A DNA stretch of 64,000 bases from Haladaptatus cibarius D43 (GTDB lineage: Archaea; Halobacteriota; Halobacteria; Halobacteriales; Haladaptataceae), in assembly GCF_000710615.1 (NCBI RefSeq), contig NZ_JDTH01000002.1:550082-614081 (forward strand), in the 5' to 3' direction. Positions 26,352-52,620 of this stretch are shown here, piece after piece. The notes below the pieces were generated by a model. The model was not told the DNA's origin. It ran no database searches and saw only the letters and a list, made by a program, of their open reading frames with translations. Each line of letters opens with the position of its first letter. The stretch's first letter is position 1. Made by a program: the position numbers and the translations under genes.

Positions 26352-27638
26352 ATGGTATATAGTGACACCGAAGCGGCGTCACGCGATGAGCTACGGACAT
26401 TACAGGACGAGCGACTGGCCGAAACGGTCGCACACGCCCACGAGAACGTTCCATTCTACCAGAACGCACTAGACGAGGCGGGAGTTTCGCCGGAGGAGAT
26501 ACAGAGCGTCGAAGACATCTCCGAACTGCCGTTTACGACGAAAGAGGATTTCCGCGACAACTACCCGGACGGGATGTTCGCGGTTCCGCGCGAGGATATT
26601 CACCGGATTCACGCCTCGTCGGGAACCACCGGAAAGCCGAAAATCGTCTCCTACACCGAAGACGACCTCGGCGTCTGGCGCGAGGTGATGGCCCGGTCGC
26701 TCTCTGCGGCGGGCGTCAAACCGGAACACGTCGTCCAGAACGCCTACGGCTACGGCTTGTTCACGGGGGGCCTCGGATTCCACGACGGGGTGCAGGAACT
26801 CGGTGCCTGTGTCATTCCAGTCGGCGGCGGGAACACCGCCCGGCAAATCGACATGCTTCAGGATTTAGAAAGTGACGTGCTCTCGTGCACGCCGTCGTAC
26901 TGTCTCTACCTCGCCGAGGCCGCGGAGGAACGCGGTATCGACCCCCGTGACCTCCCGCTTTCCACGGTCGTCATCGGCGCGGAACCGTTTACCAACCCCA
27001 TGCGCGAGGAAATCGAGGAAGCATTGGACGTGACTGCGGTGGACGTGTACGGCCTCTCGGAAATCATCGGCCCGGGCGTCTCCATCGAATGTGCCGACGT
27101 GCAGAACGGCTTGCACATCTGGGAAGACCACTTCTACCCCGAAGTCGTTGACCCCAATACGGGCGAACCGCTTCCGGAGGGCGAGGAGGGCGAACTCGTC
27201 ATCACGAGTCTGACGAAGGAGGCCCTGCCCGTTCTGCGCTACCGAACCGGCGACATGACCAGCTTGAACTACGAGAAATGTGATTGCGGCCGAACCATGG
27301 TTCGAATGGGCAACGTCACCGGAAGAGCGGACGACCTGCTCATCGTTCGCGGTGTCAACGTCTATCCGAGCCAAATCGAGGAAGTGATGGTGGATTTGGA
27401 CGCCGTCGCACCGCACTACCGAATCGACCTGACGCGGGACGGCAACTTAGACCGCATGAAAATCACGGTCGAATATCACGAGAAAATCGAAGCCTCGCCC
27501 GAGGAACTCAAGGCGGAGATTCAGTCCCGACTCGGCGAAGTGCTGGACGTGACGCCCGACGAACTCGAAGTCGTCGAACCGGGTGCCATCGACCGAACCG
27601 AAGTTGGAAAGGTAAAGCGCGTGTACGACCACCGATAA
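26352..27638 (+). CDS. paaK: Phenylacetate-CoA ligase
   Basis: 428 aa. It activates phenylacetate to phenylacetyl-CoA with ATP, the entry step of the aerobic hybrid pathway. The AMP-binding P-loop SSGTTGKPK is at residues 89-97. NAYGYGLFTGGLGFH, YGLSEIIGPGVS and YRTGDMTSL are family signatures, and the C-terminal domain has GRADDLLIVRGVNVYPSQIEE. The ATG at 26352 gives a normal length; an open frame to 26118 is non-coding overlap. The other paa genes lie 2-26 kb away. Other aryl-acid substrates cannot be excluded. Confidence 0.93.
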   Translation: MVYSDTEAASRDELRTLQDERLAETVAHAHENVPFYQNALDEAGVSPEEIQSVEDISELPFTTKEDFRDNYPDGMFAVPREDIHRIHASSGTTGKPKIVSYTEDDLGVWREVMARSLSAAGVKPEHVVQNAYGYGLFTGGLGFHDGVQELGACVIPVGGGNTARQIDMLQDLESDVLSCTPSYCLYLAEAAEERGIDPRDLPLSTVVIGAEPFTNPMREEIEEALDVTAVDVYGLSEIIGPGVSIECADVQNGLHIWEDHFYPEVVDPNTGEPLPEGEEGELVITSLTKEALPVLRYRTGDMTSLNYEKCDCGRTMVRMGNVTGRADDLLIVRGVNVYPSQIEEVMVDLDAVAPHYRIDLTRDGNLDRMKITVEYHEKIEASPEELKAEIQSRLGEVLDVTPDELEVVEPGAIDRTEVGKVKRVYDHR

Positions 27639-49140: not shown

Positions 49141-49782
49141 TTAGGCGAACATCTGCGAGAACAACGAGCGTTCGGCGCGGTGAATCCGTTCCAAGAATGC
49201 CGATTTGCTGATACCGAGGTTTTCGGCAACATCACTCGCGGTGGTTTTGCGGGGAACGCCGAAATAGCCCATTTCCGAGGCTGTTCGCAGCGCACGTTCC
49301 TGCGCTGGCGTTACGTCCCACTGTTGGGCGACGACGTGTTCGTCCTCGGAACCGAGTTGGTGGATGCGCTGCAACTGCATTCCGACCGTTTCTCCTGCCG
49401 CTTCGAGGACACCTTGGAGTACATCGTGGCCCACGACCGCACCCGTAAATGTGGCACTGCCGTCACGATAGCGAAGCGATTCCGCCATGAACCCCACGTT
49501 AGTGAGTTCGTGAACGACGCAGGGATGTTTCGAGAGACATCTGAAGTTCTGTCTGCCGTCGGTCGTAGAGACGTGAAGATACCGAATACGGTTGTCTGCA
49601 TCGAGAAAGTCGGTAAGACCTTCGCTTTCCTTTGGTGTGCTAAATCGCAAGAGGGCATAGCCATCGTCTCTGTGCTGTGGAGGTTGGCAGTCGATATGGA
49701 CGCCAGTCGTTTGCGATGCCTCTGCGAGTGGGCAGTCGTCTCCCGTGACCACGAACTCGACGACGAGACACTCGTCTATCAT
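49141..49782 (-). CDS. HTH-10 (Bat-type) regulator, likely regulator of paa genes
   Basis: 213 aa. The C-terminal HTH-10 domain (VTPAQERALRTASEMGYFGVPRKTTASDVAENLGISKSAFLERI) is the bacterio-opsin-activator type. The N-terminal about 150 residues are an effector domain (PLAEASQTTGVHIDCQPP). It is divergent from paaA with 84 bases between starts, making it the obvious candidate regulator of the paa operon. The promoter contains TTTAAA near 49806. Confidence 0.8.
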   Translation of the reverse strand: MIDECLVVEFVVTGDDCPLAEASQTTGVHIDCQPPQHRDDGYALLRFSTPKESEGLTDFLDADNRIRYLHVSTTDGRQNFRCLSKHPCVVHELTNVGFMAESLRYRDGSATFTGAVVGHDVLQGVLEAAGETVGMQLQRIHQLGSEDEHVVAQQWDVTPAQERALRTASEMGYFGVPRKTTASDVAENLGISKSAFLERIHRAERSLFSQMFA

Positions 49783-49866: not shown

Positions 49867-50808
49867 ATGGATTTAGACACCGTCAAAGAGCGGGCGGGCC
49901 CCCGGCAGTTCAGTCCGAAAGACGACATGCCGGAGGAGTACCGCAAAGCCGCAACTCGCATGATTCAGTTCCACGCGAACTCCGAAATCATGGGTGCGTA
50001 CCTCGAACGACCGTTCATTCGGCAGGCACCGAGCCTCGACCGAAAGCTGGCGTGCAGTGCGAAGGTGCAGGACGAAATCGGCCACGGCCAACTGCTCTAC
50101 CGCGCCGCGGAATCGCTCGGCATCAAAACCCGCGAACAGATGCTTGACGAGTTGGCGAACGGAGAGGGCAAGTTCCTCAACTGCTTCCACTACAAGATGG
50201 AAAAGTGGTGGGAAACGCCGATGATTGCCTTTTTCGTTGACGGTGCCGCGATGCGCCGACAGGCGACCCTGAAACGCACGAGTTGGGAACCCTACGCCCA
50301 CGCGATGGACAAGGTGTGTTTCGAGGAAGGATTCCACGTTAAACACGGCGAGGACATCATGCGCGAACTCGCAATGGGGTCGAAAAAGGAACAGGAGCTC
50401 ATGCAGGACGCCTTCGAAGAATGGTGGCCGCGCATCATCCAGTTCTTCGGCCCGACCAACGACAAGAGTACCCACCACGACTTCTCCGCCGACGTCGGCC
50501 TGAAGACGATGTCGAACGACGACCTCCGAAACGCGTTCCTCAACGCCTACATTCCGAAGGCGAAAAAGTACGGATTGGAGATTCCGGACGAGCCTCGAAT
50601 CGAGTACGACGAGGAGACGAGCACCTACAAGGTGCGCGAAGACGACCTCGATTGGGACGAGTTCTTCCAAATCGCCAAGAACAGCTACGAACCCGGCGTC
50701 GGCCAGATTAACGGCCGTAAGAACGCACAGGACGCAGTCGAATGGGTGCGTGACGTGATGGACGACTGGGAAACGGGCAACTCAAACACCCCGGTGGCGG
50801 CCGATTAA
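49867..50808 (+). CDS. paaA: Phenylacetyl-CoA epoxidase subunit A
   Basis: 313 aa, the catalytic ferritin-like subunit of the di-iron monooxygenase that epoxidises phenylacetyl-CoA. Di-iron ligands: Glu40 in ANSEIMGAYLERP, E-x-x-H (Glu70, His73) in VQDEIGHGQ, and FEEGFHVKHGED. It is the first gene of a gapless run with paaBCD. Its ATG follows the divergent regulator. Confidence 0.95.
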   Translation: MDLDTVKERAGPRQFSPKDDMPEEYRKAATRMIQFHANSEIMGAYLERPFIRQAPSLDRKLACSAKVQDEIGHGQLLYRAAESLGIKTREQMLDELANGEGKFLNCFHYKMEKWWETPMIAFFVDGAAMRRQATLKRTSWEPYAHAMDKVCFEEGFHVKHGEDIMRELAMGSKKEQELMQDAFEEWWPRIIQFFGPTNDKSTHHDFSADVGLKTMSNDDLRNAFLNAYIPKAKKYGLEIPDEPRIEYDEETSTYKVREDDLDWDEFFQIAKNSYEPGVGQINGRKNAQDAVEWVRDVMDDWETGNSNTPVAAD

Positions 50809-50809
50809 C

Positions 50810-51130
50810 ATGATTTGGGAAGTGTTCCGACAAGACGAAGCAGGCAAGTACCACACCCACTGCGGAAACGTCCACGCGCCCGACCGCGACATGGCGCTCA
50901 TGTTCGCCCAGATTCAGCACGGGCGGCGCAAGCCGACCAACAGCATCTGGGTCGTTCCGAAGGACGAGATTGCCGAGGTTGACGCCGACGACACCGCGTT
51001 CGGTGGCACGACGGACAAATCCTACCGCTGGGTGATGGCGTACAACCGCATCGACTCCAGTTTCGCCGAGGAAATCGCGGATTCCGAGGCAGAACAGGAG
51101 AAAGCCGACCGCGAGCGAGGGAAGGCATAA
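50810..51130 (+). CDS. paaB: Phenylacetyl-CoA epoxidase subunit B
   Basis: 106 aa. It begins MIWEVFRQDEAGKYHTHCGNVHAPDRDMALMFAQIQHGRR, a clear PaaB. It is the small structural subunit that bridges PaaAC in the multisubunit epoxidase. It starts two bases after the paaA stop and ends in a start/stop overlap with paaC. Confidence 0.93.
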   Translation: MIWEVFRQDEAGKYHTHCGNVHAPDRDMALMFAQIQHGRRKPTNSIWVVPKDEIAEVDADDTAFGGTTDKSYRWVMAYNRIDSSFAEEIADSEAEQEKADRERGKA

Positions 51131-51978
51131 TGTCGGCACAACTTGCCGGGCCGGATGACCTGAGCGGCGAGGAGCAGGCCGCAGTCGAATCCCTGCTTTA
51201 CCGCCTCGCGGACGACGAACTCGTCCTCGCGGAGCGTTACACCGAATGGCAGGTTCGCGCGCCGACGCTCGAATCCGACCTCGCCATCTCGAACATCGCA
51301 CAGGACGAACTCGGGCACGCCCGCCTCTGGTACGACCTGCTACAGGACTTCGGCTACAGCGAATCCGAACTCATCTTCGAGCGCGATCCGAGCGACTTCC
51401 GGCACGCGACGTTCGTGGAACTGCCGTTCGAATCGGGCGACTGGGCCGACGCCATCGTTCGTGGTTACTTCTACGACGTGGCCGAAAAACTGCGCCTCGA
51501 AGCCCTCGAAGACACGTCCTATCCGCGAATCGCGGACAGAGTTGCAAAAATCCTCTCCGAGGAGAATTACCACCTCGAACACGCCCAGAACTGGCTCGAA
51601 CGACTGACGAGCGACGACGAAGGAACGAAGCGCGTGCAGTCGGCGGTTGACCGACTGTTCCCCTACGCGCTGACGCTGTTCGAAGACGGCGATGCGAGTT
51701 CGGAAATCGACGATTTAGGCATTCGAACAGAATCGCTCGACTCGATGCGCGAACAGTGGCTCGACACCGTCGTCCCGTTCCTCGCATCATTGGGCGTGGA
51801 GGTTCCGGAGGAAATCGAGGACGGCAATCCGGACGAACTACTTCCCGAGCATCTCGGACGCGACGGAAGTCACACCGACGACTGGGCAGAGCTACACAAC
51901 GACATGACGCGGTCGTACCGAGAACTCGGACGAAGCGAAGCCCACCGCATCATGGCAGACCCCGACGATGAAGAATAA
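51130..51978 (+). CDS. paaC: Phenylacetyl-CoA epoxidase subunit C
   Basis: 282 aa, ferritin-like fold. It has IAQDELGHARLWYDLL (Glu60, His63) and ILSEENYHLEHAQNWLERL. In bacteria PaaC is a structural partner of PaaA. The start overlaps the paaB stop (TAATG). Confidence 0.93.
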   Translation: MSAQLAGPDDLSGEEQAAVESLLYRLADDELVLAERYTEWQVRAPTLESDLAISNIAQDELGHARLWYDLLQDFGYSESELIFERDPSDFRHATFVELPFESGDWADAIVRGYFYDVAEKLRLEALEDTSYPRIADRVAKILSEENYHLEHAQNWLERLTSDDEGTKRVQSAVDRLFPYALTLFEDGDASSEIDDLGIRTESLDSMREQWLDTVVPFLASLGVEVPEEIEDGNPDELLPEHLGRDGSHTDDWAELHNDMTRSYRELGRSEAHRIMADPDDEE

Positions 51979-52006: not shown

Positions 52007-52456
52007 ATGAGCAACGAACCACAAGCATACGAAACGGACTCCGAAAAGTACGACATCGAGTCGGAACCCACCGCGTGCGCCTACACCGACTACTCGGAGA
52101 GCGGGCAGTCTCCGGAGGAGCTGCCTGCGACGGGTGAGGGAGCCACCGGACTCGAAAAGCGAGTTTGGGACGCCCTCTACGATATCGAAGACCCGGAGAT
52201 GCCAATCAGCATCGTTGATTTGGGACTGATTTACGGCGTACAAATGGAGGGAGATTCGGCGACGGTCATCATGACCCTCACCTACACCGGATGCCCGGCG
52301 CGGAAGATGCTGACCGAGGAAATCGAGGAAGCGGTCGCCGACGTTGACGGTGTTGAAGATGCCGACCTCGAACTCGTCTGGAATCCGCCGTGGTCCATCG
52401 AGATGGTCACAGAACAGGGCAAAAACGACCTGCGCGACTTTGGCCTAAGCATATGA
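52007..52456 (+). CDS. paaD: PaaD, DUF59/MIP18-domain part (split PaaD, part 1)
   Basis: 149 aa. An acidic 50-residue start precedes the MIP18/DUF59 domain (VWDALYDIEDPEMPISIVDLGLIYGV, TLTYTGCPARKMLTEEI), which assists Fe-S or metal centre maturation of the epoxidase. Bacterial PaaD continues into a Cys-rich zinc domain; here the frame ends and that part is the next gene, overlapping by ATGA. Confidence 0.9.
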   Translation: MSNEPQAYETDSEKYDIESEPTACAYTDYSESGQSPEELPATGEGATGLEKRVWDALYDIEDPEMPISIVDLGLIYGVQMEGDSATVIMTLTYTGCPARKMLTEEIEEAVADVDGVEDADLELVWNPPWSIEMVTEQGKNDLRDFGLSI

Positions 52457-52620
52457 GACGACTCGACCCCAGCGTGACGACGAGCGGGGAAGACAAAGGC
52501 GCGGAGTGTCCCTACTGCGGTTCGACGGACACCTACCGCGAGCATCCGAAAGGGCCGTCGCTCTGCCGGTCGATGCACTTTTGCGACGGCTGTGAACAGC
52601 CGTTCGAGAAGTTCGAGTAA
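52453..52620 (+). CDS. PaaD zinc-ribbon part (split PaaD, part 2)
   Basis: 55 aa. AECPYCGSTDTYREHPKGPS (from residue 18) then CRSMHFCDGCEQPFEKFE matches the C-terminal module of bacterial PaaD, with Cys19, Cys22, Cys38, Cys44 and Cys47. It overlaps the previous gene by four bases, so the two halves are translated from one message and could assemble. Confidence 0.85.
   Translation: MRRLDPSVTTSGEDKGAECPYCGSTDTYREHPKGPSLCRSMHFCDGCEQPFEKFE

Follow-up and report, generated by a model that had tools for sequence, protein, structure and literature searches.

A two-gene form of PaaD in the paa operon of the haloarchaeon Haladaptatus cibarius

Overview

PaaD, a helper protein in aerobic phenylacetate breakdown, is encoded in Haladaptatus cibarius D43 by two overlapping genes, one for its MIP18/DUF59 domain (hereafter D) and one for its zinc ribbon (hereafter Z). 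The genes lie in a stretch of 64,000 nucleotides that was analysed as a whole and is called the window here. D would be a MIP18-type adaptor for Fe/S or iron delivery and Z its zinc ribbon partner. Taken in full, our explanation is that the pair is a two-gene PaaD that helps the PaaABC oxygenase to mature and that its unfused form is ancestral, which we hold to be on balance probable.

Results and discussion

Gene structure of the window locus

The D gene (52007..52456, + strand, 149 aa, called haloarchaeal paaD in other annotations) matched PF01883 with 69.2 bits against a cut-off of 23.5 in the profile search and NF041868 with 220.9 bits against a curated cut-off of 180. The Z gene (52453..52620, + strand, 55 aa, called 'paaE' in other annotations) matched PF23451 with 77.4 bits (cut-off 27) and NF041869 with 114.9 bits (curated cut-off 100). 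On TIGR02159, the 146-position model of bacterial PaaD, D takes up positions 1-89 and Z positions 97-143, and since these are consecutive parts of the model the two proteins together cover one PaaD. With the domains in two genes the full-model cut-off is missed (76.8 and 41.2 bits vs 108.15), and the pair is filed as a two-gene variant of PaaD and not as a standard TIGR02159 member. As read from the sequence, the overlap is ATGA at 52453..52456 (+ strand), formed by the Z start codon (ATG, 52453-52455) and the D stop codon (TGA, 52454-52456). The open reading frame listing also gives a longer GTG start for Z at 52390; the ATG at 52453 was taken as the start because the NF041869 alignment starts with the first residue of the 55-aa protein. 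Coordinates, strand and profile matches thus agree with the initial annotation, which had described the two domains as separate genes overlapping by ATGA, and the PF01883 and PF23451 matches with the consecutive TIGR02159 segments bear out its assignment of them as the two halves of PaaD.

The two genes lie directly behind, and closely spaced with, paaA (catalytic diiron subunit, 49867..50808; TIGR02156 289.6 bits, cut-off 280), paaB (50810..51130; NF041867 192.3 bits, cut-off 150) and paaC (structural subunit, 51130..51978; TIGR02158 184.1 bits, cut-off 133.35), all on the + strand. Divergent from these and beside paaA is an HTH_10/BAT-type gene (49141..49782, - strand; PF04967 63.1 bits, PF15915 29.8 bits), possibly a regulator of the paa operon, and Haloferax mediterranei has a helix-turn-helix gene at the equivalent place near its paa genes. 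Also, paaK for the phenylacetate-CoA ligase of the same pathway is found about 22 kb upstream (26370..27635, + strand; NF041878 801.6 bits, cut-off 700). An excerpt of a study on Haloferax alexandrinus (PMC10694973) lists paaA, paaB, paaC and paaD together among the genes raised under silver stress, and such a joint rise fits a single paa transcription unit.

Junction between the two genes

We compared the junction in 38 loci with adjacent D and Z, of which 37 come from the 392-genome survey described below and one from H. mediterranei, where paaABCDZ is carried on pHME505. Taking the nearest start, the distance from the end of the D stop codon to Z ranges from -4 to +16 nt; the start codon is ATG in 37 of the 38 (GTG only in one), and the same 4-nt ATGA overlap is present in 18. 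This close spacing suggests translational coupling, so D and Z would be made as separate proteins that are probably coupled at the overlap. The 4-nt gene overlap could also be read as the mark of one product after all, made across both frames by programmed frameshifting or stop readthrough, but we consider this extremely improbable. Relative to D, the frame of Z is 2 in 28 loci, 1 in 8 and 0 in 2, and a relation that varies in this way, over gaps from -4 to +16 nt, excludes a conserved frameshift. Also, no slippery heptamer was seen by eye at 52440-52456, and in a second group of loci (class 2, see below) paaB and paaC stand between D and Z. The same frame counts and class 2 loci dispose of a sequencing error, which the initial annotation had named beside a programmed frameshift as a way in which its reading could fail. 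At two loci (L017 and L028) D and Z are in one frame, with a stop plus one codon ahead of the ATG.

Distribution of fused and two-gene PaaD

For haloarchaea, a sample of 392 genomes of the window's phylum was used, for which the loci were fetched and their six-frame open reading frames searched for the domains. The ribbon was found above cut-off in 47 of the 392 genomes, at 50 places, of which 37 have Z directly behind D as in the window (type 1) and 13 have the two apart; three haloarchaeal genomes have both arrangements. No fused PaaD was found among these 50 above-cut-off places. When 344 genomes were drawn anew, Z was present in all 29 with D above the NF041868 cut-off and in one just below it. 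Three other haloarchaea (G134, G060 and G008) show a D-like match of 106-123 bits without a ribbon above cut-off. Since the arrangement is conserved across haloarchaeal genomes, its presence in the window is not due to chance.

The bacterial set was seeded with PaaA only and hence was not selected for fusion; it is biased toward sequences near the Deinococcus query. It gave 80 loci, and in 72 out of 72 that show both domains they are fused; the other 8 were excluded, as the sequence fetched for them contained neither domain. E. coli PaaD (b1391) is likewise a fused MIP18 domain and zinc ribbon. A survey of haloarchaeal and bacterial paa loci, as the initial annotation had proposed, therefore separates two-gene haloarchaeal places (50/50) from fused bacterial ones (72/72). 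In Chloroflexota (71 of 251 genomes), Actinomycetota (73 of 246) and Deinococcota (60 of 111) the ribbon is also found above cut-off, and their loci include fused ones and many of the class 2 kind. Over all loci read we counted 175 fused, 38 adjacent and 78 apart, with a few repeats included as the loci were not fully de-duplicated (L313 = L195, L318 = L167 and L047 = L058 are each counted twice). PaaA and PaaC were assigned by position because their search profiles converged. One Chloroflexota locus (L169) taken at first as adjacent is in fact a fused PaaD whose MIP18 domain is broken by an in-frame TAG, and it was removed from the adjacent count. A tandem second paaB-like domain or gene lies beside paaB at L035, L037, L039 and L044, and in class 2 at, for example, L054 and L280.

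Class 2 loci

The loci with D and Z apart have the gene order paaA-like, D, one or two paaB-like genes, paaC-like and Z (A-D-B(-B)-C-Z). This class 2 is found in haloarchaea, Chloroflexota, Actinomycetota and on Thermus plasmids, with Halalkalicoccus and Halobaculum among its carriers. As in the window, D and Z are separate and go with a PaaABC-like oxygenase, but the gene order differs and Z has no middle cysteine; the class 2 PaaA is 21-25% identical to Deinococcus PaaA. Wherever annotation was read, the class 2 Z is hypothetical or unannotated. These loci show that both genes can be kept in a genome without being linked. Class 2 includes L057, L058, L054 and L241-L300. On Thermus thermophilus plasmids an unannotated 67-codon gene for a PaaD-type ribbon overlaps the end of a second paaC (L054:7433-7636 and L055:6001-6204), and the L054 copy (PF23451 50.1 bits) also overlaps a possible enoyl-CoA hydratase start. 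On two haloarchaeal plasmids (L057, L058) the close neighbours of the class 2 system include a GNAT gene and a gene for a small 2Fe-2S protein.

Zinc ribbon, domain boundary and known relatives

The four CxxC cysteines of the ribbon are present in 175 of 175 fused, 38 of 38 adjacent and 77 of 78 separated loci, and the middle Cys-[K/R/Q] in 175 of 175, 38 of 38 and 0 of 78, respectively. The motif is therefore common to fused and adjacent loci, which identifies the haloarchaeal Z as the PaaD ribbon. In the alignment, the C-terminus of haloarchaeal D (FGLSI, then the stop) falls at the residue that opens the linker of fused PaaD (APP...), and haloarchaeal Z has its own conserved N-terminus, DPS[VT], not seen in the fused linkers displayed. 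Bacterial PaaD (TIGR02159; E. coli b1391) thus shares with the window pair both domains, the four zinc cysteines, the middle Cys-K/R and the place directly after paaC, but it is one polypeptide with a linker of 5-46 aa, as opposed to two genes. A predicted structure of one fused PaaD (L068; pTM 0.71) has two folded parts with a mean linker pLDDT of 58 at residues 121-130, and this low-confidence linker is in keeping with domains that may be able to work in trans.

Among solved structures, D is closest in fold to DUF59/MIP18 proteins; CIAO2B, from the eukaryotic Fe/S-targeting complex, is a weaker match. Stand-alone MIP18 proteins (TTHB138, TM0487, Rv1466 and, in eukaryotes, CIAO2B) have the fold of D but without a ribbon domain. 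That D is itself a SufT-like stand-alone MIP18 protein was considered and rejected, as the tree sets the ribbon-less outgroup apart (91/98) and D beside fused PaaD (89/83). The two-gene pair is already catalogued, because NCBIfam models each half (NF041868, paad_haloarch; NF041869, paae_haloarch), and each window protein scores above the curated cut-off of its model. A description of a two-gene PaaD was not found in the titles and abstract openings of the open-licence literature searched, and a term search of the accessible portion of a 2026 pathway survey (PMC13186573) did not return the words 'split' and 'fusion'.

The PaaE name and the likely client

Bacterial PaaE is a reductase with an FAD/NAD reductase and a 2Fe-2S domain, whereas Z is the C-terminal half of PaaD, and so the PaaE name of NF041869 is misleading and hides that the second protein is PaaD's missing half. 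Taken at face value, the name would give Z a separate function as an independent subunit, such as electron transfer or reductase docking. NCBI does call NF041869 'subunit PaaE' and H. mediterranei is annotated after the NF041868 and NF041869 names with Z as 'PaaE'; also, Z is not beside D in class 2, and the PaaE reductase is absent from these genomes. Yet we find this improbable, for Z shares homology with the C-terminal part of PaaD (PF23451; TIGR02159 positions 97-143), gives no match to the PaaE reductase model TIGR02160 at E<=1, and as a 55-aa ribbon has no flavin or 2Fe-2S domain match. As for the reductase itself, a full-length copy is absent from the window genome (best 96.3 bits vs the TIGR02160 cut-off of 420.8) and none of the 30 type-1 haloarchaeal genomes tested, out of 37 found, showed one at E<=1e-40. 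Among bacterial genomes with fused PaaD, it is present in 4 of 8, the Thermus and Chloroflexota ones being without; these 4 copies are full-length, score 396-419 bits, just under the cut-off, and lie <3 kb from PaaD.

According to a partial text of PMC2653477, paaD occurs in 25 of 25 clusters vs 19 for paaE, and extracts of PMC4498308 and PMC9493321 state that PaaD is required in vivo and not in vitro, which suggests a role in maturation. Genomes without PaaE still retain both D and Z, which makes the PaaABC core the likely client, with the diiron site of PaaA as the simplest choice. D and Z would then act together like the fused bacterial PaaD, and their job is most likely the maturation (metal loading) of the diiron oxygenase PaaABC, the phenylacetyl-CoA epoxidase, and not of PaaE.

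Direction of change

The paralogues PaaA and PaaC root each other in a joint tree, in which the L062 and L279 rows labelled PaaC are PaaA and were placed in the PaaA half. Class 2 is the first branch in either half, and the haloarchaeal type 1 lies beside the canonical fused bacteria. The D tree rooted on ribbon-less MIP18 gave the same picture (outgroup,(class 2 split,(fused, haloarchaeal split))), and a D tree with 285 labelled rows calls for one change between fused and split. Fused PaaD also forms one clade (95/87) in the D+Z tree with the linker left out; a large PaaC FastTree needs 2 changes. As the trees put class 2 outside and the haloarchaeal pair beside fused PaaD, they favour separate genes as the ancestral state and fusion as a later event in bacteria, and from these sequence comparisons the separateness of D and Z is likely to be ancestral.

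The position of a rare divergent group of fused PaaD (class 3: L302, L258 and L411, possibly L279, L351 and L239) bears on this count. L411 is the one clear extra member from an additional search; this Streptomyces plasmid has its fused PaaD beside ketoacyl-ACP synthase genes. At L279 the gene order is A-DZ-B-C. Class 3 falls below haloarchaea and canonical bacteria in the PaaA tree (100/92 for L302 and L258) and in the concatenated A+C+D tree (85/89), but groups with canonical fused PaaD in the PaaC half (95/95) and in D+Z. One fused clade is not rejected by the AU test on the PaaA/PaaC tree (p 0.060) or on A+C+D (p 0.141), and neither, on D+Z, is a position of class 3 outside (p 0.215). On trees with class 3 below, two fusions cost the same as one fusion plus a haloarchaeal fission.

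Fission, in which haloarchaea acquired a fused bacterial PaaD, split it into two genes and kept them as the domains work in trans, would therefore be as cheap as two fusions if class 3 does branch lower. It would also suit the shared A-B-C-D-Z order of type-1 haloarchaea and canonical bacteria and the single frame at L017 and L028. Against it, the rooted D tree, the 285-row D tree and the D+Z tree all give a single fused clade, the outgroup system is also split, its D and Z being separated by paaB and paaC, and the haloarchaeal Z carries its own N-terminus. We regard fission as unlikely, though it keeps a real share of the probability. The initial annotation had left fission and an ancestral state both open; the trees lean to the second. 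Under the ancestral-state reading, D and Z would at first have been separate, D would have become the neighbour of Z in the lineage of the canonical paa operons, and fusion would have followed in bacteria but not in haloarchaea. In a wider form, which we put at an even chance, D and Z may be an old two-protein module that loads metal into PaaABC-type diiron oxygenases, encoded by separate genes before the phenylacetate pathway settled and unfused still in class 2, with the haloarchaeal paa operons as an adjacent-but-unfused intermediate toward bacterial PaaD.

Implications

The database name misleads in practice, for automatic annotation gives a PaaE subunit to genomes without the reductase. 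With no PaaE in these genomes, the oxygenase core becomes the likelier client of PaaD, and the two-gene form bears on why PaaD matters in vivo but not in vitro. Being a natural two-gene form, it means that each PaaD domain can be deleted or assayed singly in a genetically tractable archaeon.
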